Shown: in pieces, positions 26,852 to 51,235 of the stretch
How the letters are laid out: every line of letters starts with the position of its first letter
How positions within the stretch are numbered: position 1 is the stretch's first letter
Assembly (NCBI RefSeq): GCF_900115185.1
Contig: NZ_FOVN01000001.1
Coordinates: forward strand, 1,054,001 to 1,118,000
Origin: Algorimicrobium echini
GTDB lineage: Bacteria; Bacteroidota; Bacteroidia; Flavobacteriales; Flavobacteriaceae
Length of the DNA stretch: 64,000 nt
Direction of reading: 5' to 3'
Notes under the pieces: model-generated
Databases searched by the model: none
The model's input: only the letters and a program-made list of their open reading frames with translations
What the model was told of the DNA's origin: nothing
Translations under genes and position numbers: made by a program

Positions 26852-26882
26852 AAAGCGCTACTTCTTTTGGAAGTAGCGCTTT
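26852..26882 (+). terminator. Terminator of sucAB
   Basis: A perfect 13-bp stem (26852-26864 with 26870-26882) with a 5-base loop and a T tract to 26885. It also faces the end of the small leftward gene at 26911, but lacks a strong T run on that strand. Confidence 0.9.
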
Positions 26883-26910: not shown

Positions 26911-27042
26911 TTAAAAAAAGCAGACAAGAATATTTAATGAAATAACGATCACGACTAATACAACGATTCCAAAAACGAAAAATTTATTAGTATTTGAATT
27001 CTGCATAACTTCAAAGTTGTTTGGTAGATTGGATTGTTCCAT
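26911..27042 (-). CDS. Small single-helix membrane protein (43 aa) driven by promoter module 1
   Basis: From the ATG at 27042 the gene encodes 43 residues: a polar N-terminus (MEQSNLPNNFEVMQNSNTN) followed by a C-terminal hydrophobic helix (FFVFGIVVLVVIVISLNILV). The N-terminus should face the cytoplasm as a tail-anchored protein. Longer in-frame starts exist at 27090 and 27072; 27042 is preferred because of the A-rich TTAAA just before it. No family is recognised. The promoter module at 27100-27157 places its transcript start near 27107, which supports a real gene controlled with the two putative small RNAs next to it. Confidence 0.5.
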   Translation of the reverse strand: MEQSNLPNNFEVMQNSNTNKFFVFGIVVLVVIVISLNILVCFF

Positions 27043-27099
27043 TTTAATTGGTTTAAGCGTGGAATGTCTCATAATAAAATGGCAATCCATATCTGTAAT

Positions 27100-27157
27100 T
27101 AATAGCAAAGTAAAGGTATGGGTAATGGTTTAAATATGAAATACGTAGAACTACGTA
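27100..27157 (-). promoter_or_regulatory. Promoter module 1: 7-2-7 palindrome, 23-bp spacer, TACCTTTAC, GCTATTA
   Basis: On the minus strand the palindrome TACGTAG-TT-CTACGTA (27142-27157) is followed by exactly 23 bp, TACCTTTAC (27110-27118), 3 bp, and GCTATTA (27100-27106). TACCTTTA is close to the -7 consensus TAnnTTTG. The palindrome centre lies about 42 bp before the expected start, as for activators that stand in for the -33 contact. It drives the 43-aa membrane protein. Confidence 0.7.
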
Positions 27158-27183
27158 ATTTTAGGTTTCAAAAAAATAGCCAT

Positions 27184-27253
27184 AAGAAAAGGGCTTCTAA
27201 TCTTCAGATTAAAAGCCCTCTAATAAATTCCCTCAAATAACTAACTAATAGCA
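27184..27253 (-). ncRNA. Putative small RNA from promoter module 2 (about 70 nt)
   Basis: Transcription from module 2 should start near 27253 and stop at the hairpin 27191-27218. The intervening 30 or so bases contain no ATG, so no peptide is expected. The RNA begins with GCTATTA and contains TTTATTAGAGG before the terminator stem, similar to TTTATTACAGG in the second putative RNA. Ends are inferred from promoter and terminator positions only. Confidence 0.5.
27191..27218 (-). terminator. Terminator of the module-2 small RNA
   Basis: A 12-bp stem (27191-27202 with 27207-27218, one G-T pair) with a 4-base loop, followed on the minus strand by TTTTCTTATGG. Confidence 0.75.
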
Positions 27254-27303
27254 CTGTAAAGATATGTTAGATAAACCATTAAAAAAATACGTAGTTCTAC
27301 GTA
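27246..27303 (-). promoter_or_regulatory. Promoter module 2: 7-2-7 palindrome, 23-bp spacer, TATCTTTAC, GCTATTA
   Basis: On the minus strand TACGTAG-AA-CTACGTA (27288-27303; arms extend to 13 bp with flanking A and T runs, 27282-27309) is followed by exactly 23 bp, TATCTTTAC (27256-27264), 3 bp and GCTATTA (27246-27252). Same geometry as modules 1 and 3. Confidence 0.75.
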
Positions 27304-27328
27304 TTTTTTGCCTGTTAAAGTAAAAGCC

Positions 27329-27409
27329 AAAAAAAAAGACCTTAAAAGTAAAACTTTAAAGGCCTTTTTAGTTTCAACCTGTAATAAACAAGGTATCCGA
27401 TTAATAGCA
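27329..27409 (-). ncRNA. Putative small RNA from promoter module 3 (about 80 nt)
   Basis: Transcription from module 3 should start near 27409 and end in the T tract after the hairpin 27335-27367. No ATG lies between start and terminator. The RNA shares GCTATTA at its 5' end and TTTATTACAGG with the module-2 RNA; the rest differs, so they would be separate members of a family rather than exact copies. Ends are inferred. Confidence 0.5.
27335..27367 (-). terminator. Terminator of the module-3 small RNA
   Basis: A 14-position stem (27335-27348 with 27354-27367, one G-T pair and one mismatch), 5-base loop, followed on the minus strand by a run of nine T. Confidence 0.78.
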
Positions 27410-27459
27410 ATGTAAATATACAGCAAACTAAAATATTGTGAAATACGTAGTTCTACGTA
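27402..27459 (-). promoter_or_regulatory. Promoter module 3: 7-2-7 palindrome, 23-bp spacer, TATATTTAC, GCTATTA
   Basis: On the minus strand TACGTAG-AA-CTACGTA (27444-27459) is followed by exactly 23 bp, TATATTTAC (27412-27420), 3 bp and GCTATTA (27402-27408). The palindrome begins 8 bp past the stop codon of the response regulator gene. Confidence 0.75.
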
Positions 27460-27467
27460 TTTTTTAA

Positions 27468-28103
27468 CTACTCTAAAAACTGTTCATTCTCTTTCGCAAA
27501 TAAAGACAGACTGTTATGTTTAGATTCTAAATTCAATTTTTTAATAATATTACTCTTGTGCTTCTCAATTGTTCTTCCAGATACAGATAATGCATTGCCA
27601 ATTTCGTTAGCTGTTTTATTTTGGGCAATTAAAGCTAAAACTTTAATTTCAGCTTTTGTTAACTCGTTTAAAGCTTGTGGTTTTTGTACATTTAAATTGG
27701 CATTAAGATATTGCGCTATTTCCTCACTAAAGTACGGTTTATTATTCGTGACGTTTTCAATACATAGTTCAATTTCTTCAATAGCAAACTCTTTTAAAAT
27801 ATAACCAAAAATTTTTAGCTCTTGAGCTTTGTCATATAATTCCTCACCCTTATCAAACGTTATTAGAATAATTTTAGTTTTTATACCATTTTTTAAACAT
27901 TCTTCAGCTACCTCTAGCCCTGTTAAATATGGCATTCTTATATCTAGAATAGCAATGTCTGGCTTGTGTTTAATAATTAAATTATAGGCCTCCTTGCCAT
28001 CTTTACCACTACCTAAAATGTTGTAGCCTTTAGACTTTAAAAAGTCATGGAGCCCACGTAACATGAGTGGATGATCATCCGCTATAATTATTGAAGATTG
28101 CAT
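27468..28103 (-). CDS. NarL/LuxR-family two-component response regulator
   Basis: This 211-residue protein has a receiver domain (1-120) with the acidic pocket IADDHP and phospho-acceptor Asp54 in AILDIRMPYL. A LuxR-type helix-turn-helix covers about 145-205 (LTKAEIKVLALIAQNKTANEIGNALSV, then SGRTIEKHKSNIIKKLN). It should bind DNA as a phosphorylation-controlled dimer. No histidine kinase is adjacent, so its partner lies elsewhere. It sits directly upstream of the three promoter modules. Their 7-2-7 inverted heptamers are the geometry known for NarL, which makes this protein the best candidate regulator. A weak promoter-like TATCTTTA (minus strand) lies at 28132-28139. Confidence 0.93.
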   Translation of the reverse strand: MQSSIIIADDHPLMLRGLHDFLKSKGYNILGSGKDGKEAYNLIIKHKPDIAILDIRMPYLTGLEVAEECLKNGIKTKIILITFDKGEELYDKAQELKIFGYILKEFAIEEIELCIENVTNNKPYFSEEIAQYLNANLNVQKPQALNELTKAEIKVLALIAQNKTANEIGNALSVSGRTIEKHKSNIIKKLNLESKHNSLSLFAKENEQFLE

Positions 28104-28167
28104 GATTTGGTTAGTTAGTAAAACTTGAGTATAAAGATACGTAATTTAGATATAGTGAAGTTTTATC

Positions 28168-28623
28168 TTACAATTTTAAATACAAATATTTCTTCTCATA
28201 ATCAATAACCCCTTTTCCTTTTCTTAAAACATCCGCTCCAATAATACCATCAACAGGTTTGGCATTGTGGTTAATTAATGCCGTATTTACATGTGTTAGG
28301 TTAAATAAAATTAAAGGAACCTTGTCTTGTTTCCATTTACCTATTTTTATTTGATTTTTTTTAGATATTTGTGTGATCATATCACTTGCACCAGCTCCTG
28401 CTGCTTTTATTTCAGAATCCTTTACTTTCAGCTTAAAGGTTTCAATGGCTTCAAAACCTACACAAGAACTTGAGGCTCCAGTATCCAAAATAAAAAGTCC
28501 TTTAACACCGTTAATAGATGACTTTATTTCAAAATGATTAGTTTTTGTTAATTTTAATTTGATTTTCGTATAGCCTTTTTCTAATAAAAAATCTTTGAGA
28601 CTCTTGTTGGGTTCTTCACTCAT
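28168..28623 (-). CDS. Retropepsin-like aspartic protease family protein
   Basis: This 151-residue single-domain protein has the clan AA signature ILDTGASSSCVG with Asp47-Thr48-Gly49, a flap region near residues 70-85, and a closing motif around VDGIIGADVL. Such single-domain proteins act as homodimers with one catalytic Asp from each subunit. No signal peptide is seen, so it appears cytoplasmic. The C-terminus (VIDYEKKYLYLKL) is typical of the family. Substrate unknown. A promoter -7 element is at 28646-28653; the response regulator gene follows 64 bp downstream and could be co-transcribed. Confidence 0.8.
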   Translation of the reverse strand: MSEEPNKSLKDFLLEKGYTKIKLKLTKTNHFEIKSSINGVKGLFILDTGASSSCVGFEAIETFKLKVKDSEIKAAGAGASDMITQISKKNQIKIGKWKQDKVPLILFNLTHVNTALINHNAKPVDGIIGADVLRKGKGVIDYEKKYLYLKL

Positions 28624-51105: not shown

Positions 51106-51190
51106 TTTGGGCGTTACCTAAAGGTCGCGCTTTCCGCTATATCTTTTTTTTTGTATCTCAAAAAAGGATGCCGCTTCAATCGCTAACGCA
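51106..51190. repeat. Probable degenerate dispersed intergenic element
   Basis: The stretch TTTTTGGGCGTTACC, then GGTCGCGCTTTCCGCTATATC, T run, A run, AAGGATGCCGCTTCAATCGC and TAACGC is more GC-rich than its surroundings. It has an inner inverted repeat (ATCTTTTTT with AAAAAAGGAT). It resembles, from memory, repeats scattered through Bacteroidota genomes. No reading frame is convincing. A short direct repeat GGTCGCGCT also occurs at 51067-51075. Confidence 0.4.
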
Positions 51191-51235
51191 GTGGGTTAGA
51201 ATAAACCTAATAATTTATATGCATTGAAAATTGAT

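Follow-up and report, generated by a model that had tools for sequence, protein, structure and literature searches.

A candidate response regulator-small RNA circuit built on promoter modules of fixed geometry in Flavobacteriaceae

In a 64,000-nucleotide stretch of the Algorimicrobium echini genome (contig NZ_FOVN01000001.1, positions 1,054,001 to 1,118,000; hereafter the window), we found three copies of a promoter module directly behind a gene for a response regulator (RR), and we consider it likely that the RR activates sibling small RNAs (sRNAs) from this array, which would in turn repress translation of the RR. The initial annotation had described the modules, all on the minus strand, as TACGTAG-N2-CTACGTA, 23 bp, TAnnTTTAC, 3 bp and GCTATTA with identical spacing; all three are present exactly, to the letter, with no mismatch in any palindrome (Table 1). 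That annotation overlooked the probable cognate RR, the terminator-ended sRNAs, a small membrane protein and the complementarity between the sRNAs and the RR leader.

Table 1. Coordinates of the features of the array and its neighbours in the window.
Feature	Position	Strand	Basis or remark
Palindrome 1, TACGTAG-N2-CTACGTA	27444..27459	.	0 mismatches; centre -43.5 (predicted)
Palindrome 2, TACGTAG-N2-CTACGTA	27288..27303	.	0 mismatches
Palindrome 3, TACGTAG-N2-CTACGTA	27142..27157	.	0 mismatches
-7 box 1 (TATATTTAC)	27412..27420	-	box position after PMC9723704 (excerpted text)
-7 box 2 (TATCTTTAC)	27256..27264	-	sequence match
-7 box 3 (TACCTTTAC)	27110..27118	-	sequence match
Predicted sRNA unit 1 (diverged), about 80 nt, hairpin and T-run end	27329..27408	-	R1 38.5 bits, E 7.7e-5
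Predicted sRNA unit 2, about 71 nt, hairpin terminator	27182..27252	-	R1 59.9 bits, E 1.1e-8
Small-protein mRNA leader (predicted), starting GCUAUUAAUUA like the sRNAs	27043..27106	-	same in L040 +307
43-aa single-helix membrane protein, MEQSN...FFVFGIVVLVVIVISLNILVCFF	26911..27042	-	start by comparison with L040
RR gene, REC and GerE, NarL/FixJ type	27471..28103 (without stop codon)	-	Pfam
RR mRNA leader with proposed sRNA-pairing site ACTAACTAA (-16 to -8), CTCAA upstream of the site	28104..28163	-	
Aspartyl-protease-like (retropepsin-like) gene, upstream of the RR gene	28171..28623 (without stop codon)	-	Pfam Asp_protease_2 1.9e-11

The window contains five matches to the palindrome at three or fewer mismatches, where 1.15 are expected and all of 100 shuffles stayed below five. 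The sigma-A box of Flavobacterium psychrophilum, TAnnTTTG, spans -12 to -5 according to the excerpted text of PMC9723704. With the box of the module set at these positions, the predicted +1 is most likely the G of GCTATTA (27408, 27252 and 27106), and the palindrome would therefore extend from -51 to -36 with its centre at -43.5. The initial annotation had put this centre about 42 bp before the start, where activators replace -33 contacts; the activator-like placement stands, but the F. psychrophilum box placement predicts -43.5 instead, and the palindrome, ending at -36, adjoins the -33 region rather than lying over it. GCTATTA, which had been counted as a part of the module, is present in all three copies but would be the 5' end of the RNA and not a promoter element. 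At -35 to -33, each of the three window copies has TTT, and copies elsewhere have TTG, TTT or some other triplet beginning with T. The LuxR activator binds a lux box centred at about -42.5, close to -43.5. A sigma-70-type promoter scan was uninformative for the window (nine promoter-like sites versus 7.1 expected), and both sRNA terminators were absent from the terminator list of the same scan.

The 23-bp spacing between palindrome and box is selected, as had been suspected from its constancy. Across 249 genomes of the family, a search for TACGTANNNNTACGTA-N{10,40}-TANNTTTAC, which permits 31 spacings, returned 23 bp in 42 of 54 exact matches, with the others scattered over 20 bp (one match), 22 (two), 25 (one), 27 (one), 28 (two), 31 (one), 32 (two) and 33 bp (two); the reversed control gave no exact match in these genomes. 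With up to two mismatches, palindrome and box together occur in 67 of the 249 genomes, often in tandem at about 146 bp, compared to three matches in total for the reversed control. Counts across genomes and loci, here and below, take in related species. The window's own genome holds nine palindromes with at most one mismatch, eight of which have the sigma-A-like box TAnnTTT[AG] at a fixed place, exactly 23 bp on; the opposite pattern, palindromes lacking a box at fixed distance, was not seen. The differing sequences of the spacers and transcribed parts, together with the retention of the array across genera, fit the initial view that the modules are not a recent duplication. This family-wide spacing, and a second palindrome at the same distance (see below), bear out the proposal of an activator-type palindrome at a fixed distance from a Bacteroidota -7 box, and the case for the promoter part of our reading is strong.

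Some palindromes of the own genome precede other genes, with TAGATTTGG or TAGGTTTG as the box, so the site also occurs outside the array. At four such loci (L004, L005, L006 and L009, the last with one mismatch in the palindrome), TAGATTTGG or TAGGTTTG lies at 23 bp, and membrane, secreted or hypothetical genes follow; these genes are possible further direct targets.

The gene directly upstream of the modules encodes a protein of 211 aa in which Pfam recognised Response_reg (6.1e-23) and GerE (2.7e-12) and nothing else. It has the acidic pair, phospho-Asp, Thr and Lys of a REC domain and the C-terminal GerE domain of NarL/FixJ regulators, and residues D9, D10, D54, T82 and K104 are invariant in 20 aligned RR sequences, the window's included (alignment A1, from which L032 was left out because of a stop codon). 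Among 55 orthologous RR loci (50% identity or higher, with 150 bp or more of sequence downstream, from the best 80 of more named loci), 51 carry the module and four have no module site, with the first site at a median of 5 bp past the RR stop codon (range -6 to 290). Several modules are present in 30 of the 55, and 32 of 38 site-to-site spacings measure 136-192 bp. By comparison, the remaining sequence of those loci (427,041 bp) contained a single site on each strand. Among the matches listed, an RR orthologue (cut-off 190 bits) is found in 65 of 67 module genomes versus 37 of 182 module-free genomes (Fisher p=1.7e-30, relatedness ignored), 37 of 102 genomes with an RR orthologue lack a module within two mismatches, one genome (G040) has modules without an RR match, and another module genome (G051) has no more than a fragment of an RR.

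Half-site sequence also follows the recognition helix (each half-site counted singly, relatedness ignored): E accompanies TACGTA in 110 of 112 half-sites, H accompanies TACGCA in nine of 12, D accompanies TACGTA in 30 and TACGCA in 12 of 42, and YRTVE accompanies TACGTG in 16 of 18. Position, co-occurrence and recognition-helix covariation together suggest that the RR binds the palindrome. To our knowledge, no REC-GerE regulator of this group has an operator that has been characterised, and none appeared among the literature matches listed. The initial statement that no flavobacterial regulon with this site had been described held for the open-access literature searched, partly as top-ranked matches, where we found no paper on the module motif or the RNA; what it missed was the candidate cognate RR upstream. 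The aspartyl-protease-like gene lies beside the RR gene in 21 of the 30 loci L010-L039, the window's own included. In a separate set of 28 loci (L092-L119), a TACGTA-type palindrome follows the regulator gene at no more than 330 bp in 14, 13 of these 14 at below 52% RR identity, and two loci (L104 and L114) have two such palindromes 21 bp apart; a wider habit of self-adjacent operators among relatives of the RR is possible.

Most modules precede predicted terminator-ended RNAs of about 75 nt. GCTATTA follows the -7 box in 41 of the 55 RR loci, and the predicted RNA consists of a conserved 5' part (commonest form GCUAUUAAUUAGUUCUUAGGGAGAAUUA) and a terminator hairpin. In the window, the regions of unit 1 (27310-27412) and unit 2 (27170-27256) fold with z-scores of -2.99 and -2.82, respectively. 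Fifty terminator-bearing units were divided between alignments A2 (32 units) and A3 (14 units), with four in neither; among the 32 of A2, both sides have changed in 12 of 14 terminator pairs, 96.9% of cells are paired, and none of 500 shuffles equalled this. An RNA model built from these 32 units (R1) has matches in 111 of the 249 family genomes at E≤0.01, some of the weakest of which may be chance, and in three of 148 genomes of an order-level sample at E≤1e-4, all three in the own family. No Rfam 15 family matched these units at its gathering score in the window and 18 loci, and a permissive scan of the window locus gave matches below gathering score only. The units thus combine the marks of an independent sRNA gene, namely a promoter-like module of their own, conserved structure and an intrinsic terminator that covaries, and the production of sibling sRNAs from modules 1 and 2 is supported by conservation and covariation.

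We then asked where these RNAs might pair. In the window, unit 2 forms a run of nine pairs with the RR leader (UUAGUUAGU with ACUAACUAA, at -16 to -8) and unit 1 pairs weakly (longest run six); the window's RR leader contains neither AATAGC nor TCCCT/CCCTA, and unit 2 is itself diverged in sequence. Ranked against other gene starts for pairing in 12 loci chosen for a canonical core, the RR start region came first in eight and within the top three in all 12. With leaders taken from -60 to the start codon in 42 loci (window left out), TTAATAGC is present in 18 of 42 RR leaders versus 0 of 252 other leaders of the same loci, TCCCT in 21 of 42 versus one of 252, and the median core duplex energy is -14.1 kcal/mol for RR leaders versus -7.9 kcal/mol for other leaders. 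AATAGC or TCCCT/CCCTA occurs in at least half of the loci in 22 of 26 lineages, with unnamed loci treated as lineages of their own. When every locus with a GCTATTA-type unit is taken, the window's among them (43 in all), the leader duplex is singly significant against dinucleotide shuffles in 22 (mean z -1.79). Often a non-cognate RR leader pairs just as well (for the window, at least as well in 24 of 42), and pair-by-pair coevolution is therefore unsupported; the reversed core also favours RR leaders (-10.1 versus -7.5, p=3e-11), so that part of the leader signal is composition. The AATAGC and TCCCT sites occur in both orders among RR leaders, and in several AATAGC lies upstream of TCCCT, an order in which a single simple duplex cannot use both. 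Because the 5' end and loop of the sRNAs are complementary to the RR leader, we infer that they most likely repress the translation of the RR itself.

When we searched for CCCTA..TTAATAGC..ATG as a wider target signature, many matches proved to be the antisense strand of sRNA genes, and 20 others that we fetched had no common theme apart from L171 and L172; we therefore claim no wider sRNA regulon. These two loci encode homologous small secreted proteins in two genera, and their leaders share AACAGATTAATAGCAAC behind CCCTA, making them a candidate shared sRNA target. As for RNA-binding proteins, none of 31 genomes had a CsrA (control positive in three of 14), and the own genome had no match to Hfq (control positive in five of 14 genomes) or RRM_1.

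The third module faces a gene for a 43-aa membrane protein without a Pfam match. A similar small protein (24-85 aa allowed, mostly 30-45) lies within 900 bp downstream of the RR gene in 45 of 52 loci, from the best 80 of more, compared to four of 52 on the opposite strand. These proteins share a single strongly hydrophobic stretch and an end with Asn that recurs, e.g. ISINILVCFF or ISANIAVNFFS. In Altibacter and relatives (e.g. L069, L077 and L082), a TACGTG-type palindrome stands directly before the small-protein gene with no sRNA between them, and for this reason the arrangement of regulator, palindrome and small protein may be the older one, with sRNA units added later. In the window, a perfect 13-bp inverted repeat with T-runs both ways (26852-26882) separates the small-protein gene from a convergent gene, which we take to be an E2-like dehydrogenase gene, and is probably a shared terminator.

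A second regulator appears to use the same RNA core. Away from the RR locus, we fetched 20 places with 22 R1 matches, of which 13 lie behind TACTCAA-N-TTGAGTA or a near variant, three behind a TACGTA-type palindrome, and six behind neither on reading (L150 twice, L159, L165, L166 and L167). In L150, the two R1-matching RNAs follow another inverted repeat, of TTACGG...CCGTAA type, and L167 matches R1 at 87.9 bits though no obvious palindrome lies upstream. Twelve TACTCAA-type loci and that of the own genome carry a gene for a regulator of 255-260 aa, which ends -12 to +95 bp from the palindrome in all 13 loci read, and each of three scanned regulators from these loci has PAS and GerE domains. 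In a free gap scan of the 249 genomes, TACTCAANTTGAGTA (TACTCAA-N-TTGAGTA) lies 23 bp from the box in 23 of 24 matches and 24 bp in the other, with none in the control. The own-genome locus (L170, C17:144119-144886) has a PAS-GerE-type regulator gene with TACTCAATTTGAGTA 3 bp past its stop codon, and then a GCTATTATTTGAGGGA sRNA-like unit. The activator reading gains strong support from this pair of GerE proteins, whose sites differ, adjoin the respective regulator genes and stand equally far from the same RNA. No such small-protein gene occurs within 900 bp at the PAS-GerE loci (0 of 13); of the 13 PAS-GerE gene leaders, none contains AATAGC and one contains TCCCT. We regard the PAS-GerE regulator as the probable driver of this RNA core from its different palindrome, and its RNAs could cross-repress the RR.

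These observations can be joined in one mechanism. A phosphorylatable REC-GerE RR (27471-28103) would bind the 7-2-7 palindrome, and because the palindrome abuts the -33 region, the bound dimer, centred at -43.5, is proposed to recruit sigma-A RNA polymerase to the TAnnTTTA -7 box. Each module of the array would start its own transcript at the G of GCTATTA, modules 1 and 2 yielding short terminator-ended sibling sRNAs and module 3 the mRNA of the conserved small single-helix membrane protein. The 5' end of these sRNAs, GCUAUUAAU, and a UUAGGGA loop (with UUAGUUAGU and UUUGAGGG as its equivalents in the own genome) would pair with the RR mRNA leader near the start codon, block RR translation and so close a negative feedback loop. 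Elsewhere in the genome, PAS-GerE would drive the same RNA core from its own palindrome and may cross-repress the RR. We give about an even chance to the full network, taken jointly: a so far undescribed Flavobacteriaceae system in which REC- and PAS-GerE regulators each drive copies of one new sRNA family from palindromes set 23 bp ahead of the -7 box, the sRNA represses the RR without Hfq, RRM_1 or CsrA, and the RR also makes a new small membrane protein that may feed back on the sensor.

Several other explanations share parts of this evidence. The promoter and sRNAs could be right while the sRNAs act on other mRNAs or on a protein, with the leader complementarity an AT-rich by-product or a means of activation; we think this unlikely, although it deserves the most weight among the alternatives. 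Single significance in 22 of 43 loci, the weaker but real preference of the reversed core, and the occurrence of CCCTA..TTAATAGC before the ATG of other leaders such as those of the L171 and L172 secreted proteins are all compatible with it, but it leaves unexplained the concentration of TTAATAGC (18 of 42 versus 0 of 252) and TCCCT (21 of 42 versus one of 252) in RR leaders over others of the same loci. A protein target fits poorly with CsrA in 0 of 31 genomes and with the lack of Hfq and RRM_1 matches in the own genome, and a CsrA sponge is ruled out by the former count. Somewhat less probable still, the palindrome could be bound by another regulator or be the operator of a repressor that turns the sRNA promoter off. 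Loci L092-L119, nearly all weaker RR relatives, of which 14 of 28 have a TACGTA-type palindrome in the 330 bp behind the gene, and the modules of G040, without an RR match among the matches listed, speak for another regulator, but the fixed position abutting -33, the adjacency to the RR gene in 51 of 55 loci and the covariation of helix and half-site favour the RR as an activator.

It is very unlikely that the short RNAs arise by attenuation, as leaders of the small-protein gene, rather than as independent sRNAs. In the window, GCUAUUAAUUA would also begin the small-protein mRNA, whose gene belongs to the same array, but each unit has a palindrome, -7 box and terminator of its own, and the RNA is found at PAS-GerE loci with no small-protein gene within 900 bp (0 of 13). 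Barely credible is the idea that the palindrome after the RR stop codon ends the RR mRNA, as a terminator or a 3' hairpin that duplication has multiplied. It does lie a median of 5 bp past the stop codon, and in some copies a weak hairpin can form with the A/T runs on either side, but the palindrome also stands ahead of every downstream unit and at other places in the genome (L004-L006), its distance to the next -7 box is fixed, and some copies have no T-run. Spacing and repeated use led us to rule out the palindrome as a terminator.

The preferred reading, activation of sibling sRNAs by the RR with feedback on its own translation, has relatives in other bacteria. In Vibrio, the response regulator LuxO, an NtrC-type sigma-54 activator, activates several sibling Qrr sRNAs, which need Hfq and exert negative feedback, including on the regulator. 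Qrr sRNAs and LuxO are among the closest known systems (PMC2680268, excerpted text). The candidate circuit resembles them in logic, with an activator, sibling sRNAs and (here inferred) feedback, but differs in its candidate activator, REC-GerE without an NtrC-type part in Pfam, its predicted promoter of sigma-A -7 type, its RNA and array, and the absence of an Hfq match in the own genome. GacA/UvrY, a GerE-type response regulator, activates RsmY/Z and CsrB through an upstream palindrome, and Rsm/Csr RNAs, which have GGG in a hairpin loop, titrate CsrA. A GerE regulator, a palindrome, an sRNA and GGG in a hairpin loop recur here; in contrast, CsrA is found in 0 of 31 genomes, the palindrome differs, and the sRNAs lie beside the regulator gene. 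Without an NtrC-type activator, an Hfq match or CsrA, the locus lacks the defining parts of both systems. NarL sites are heptamer inverted repeats of 7-2-7 form, and the palindrome shares this arrangement and a half-site beginning with TAC, but its half-site is TACGTAG, it is fixed at a predicted -43.5, and the regulator subfamily is different. Flavo-1 RNA (RF01705) and Rfp18 are flavobacterial non-coding RNAs (PMC9723704, excerpted text). The present units have no Rfam match at gathering score, and Flavo-1 lies elsewhere in the window (51119-51201, minus strand, 58.9 bits) with no such palindrome nearby.

The proposed circuit is apparently undescribed and would be present in many flavobacteria. 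How sRNAs pair in Bacteroidota without an obvious Hfq or ProQ is an open question according to the excerpted text of PMC7366714. The locus offers a family-wide sRNA family with a candidate activator, a candidate operator of fixed geometry and a specific, testable target, to which the PAS-GerE protein would add a second regulator acting on the same RNA core.
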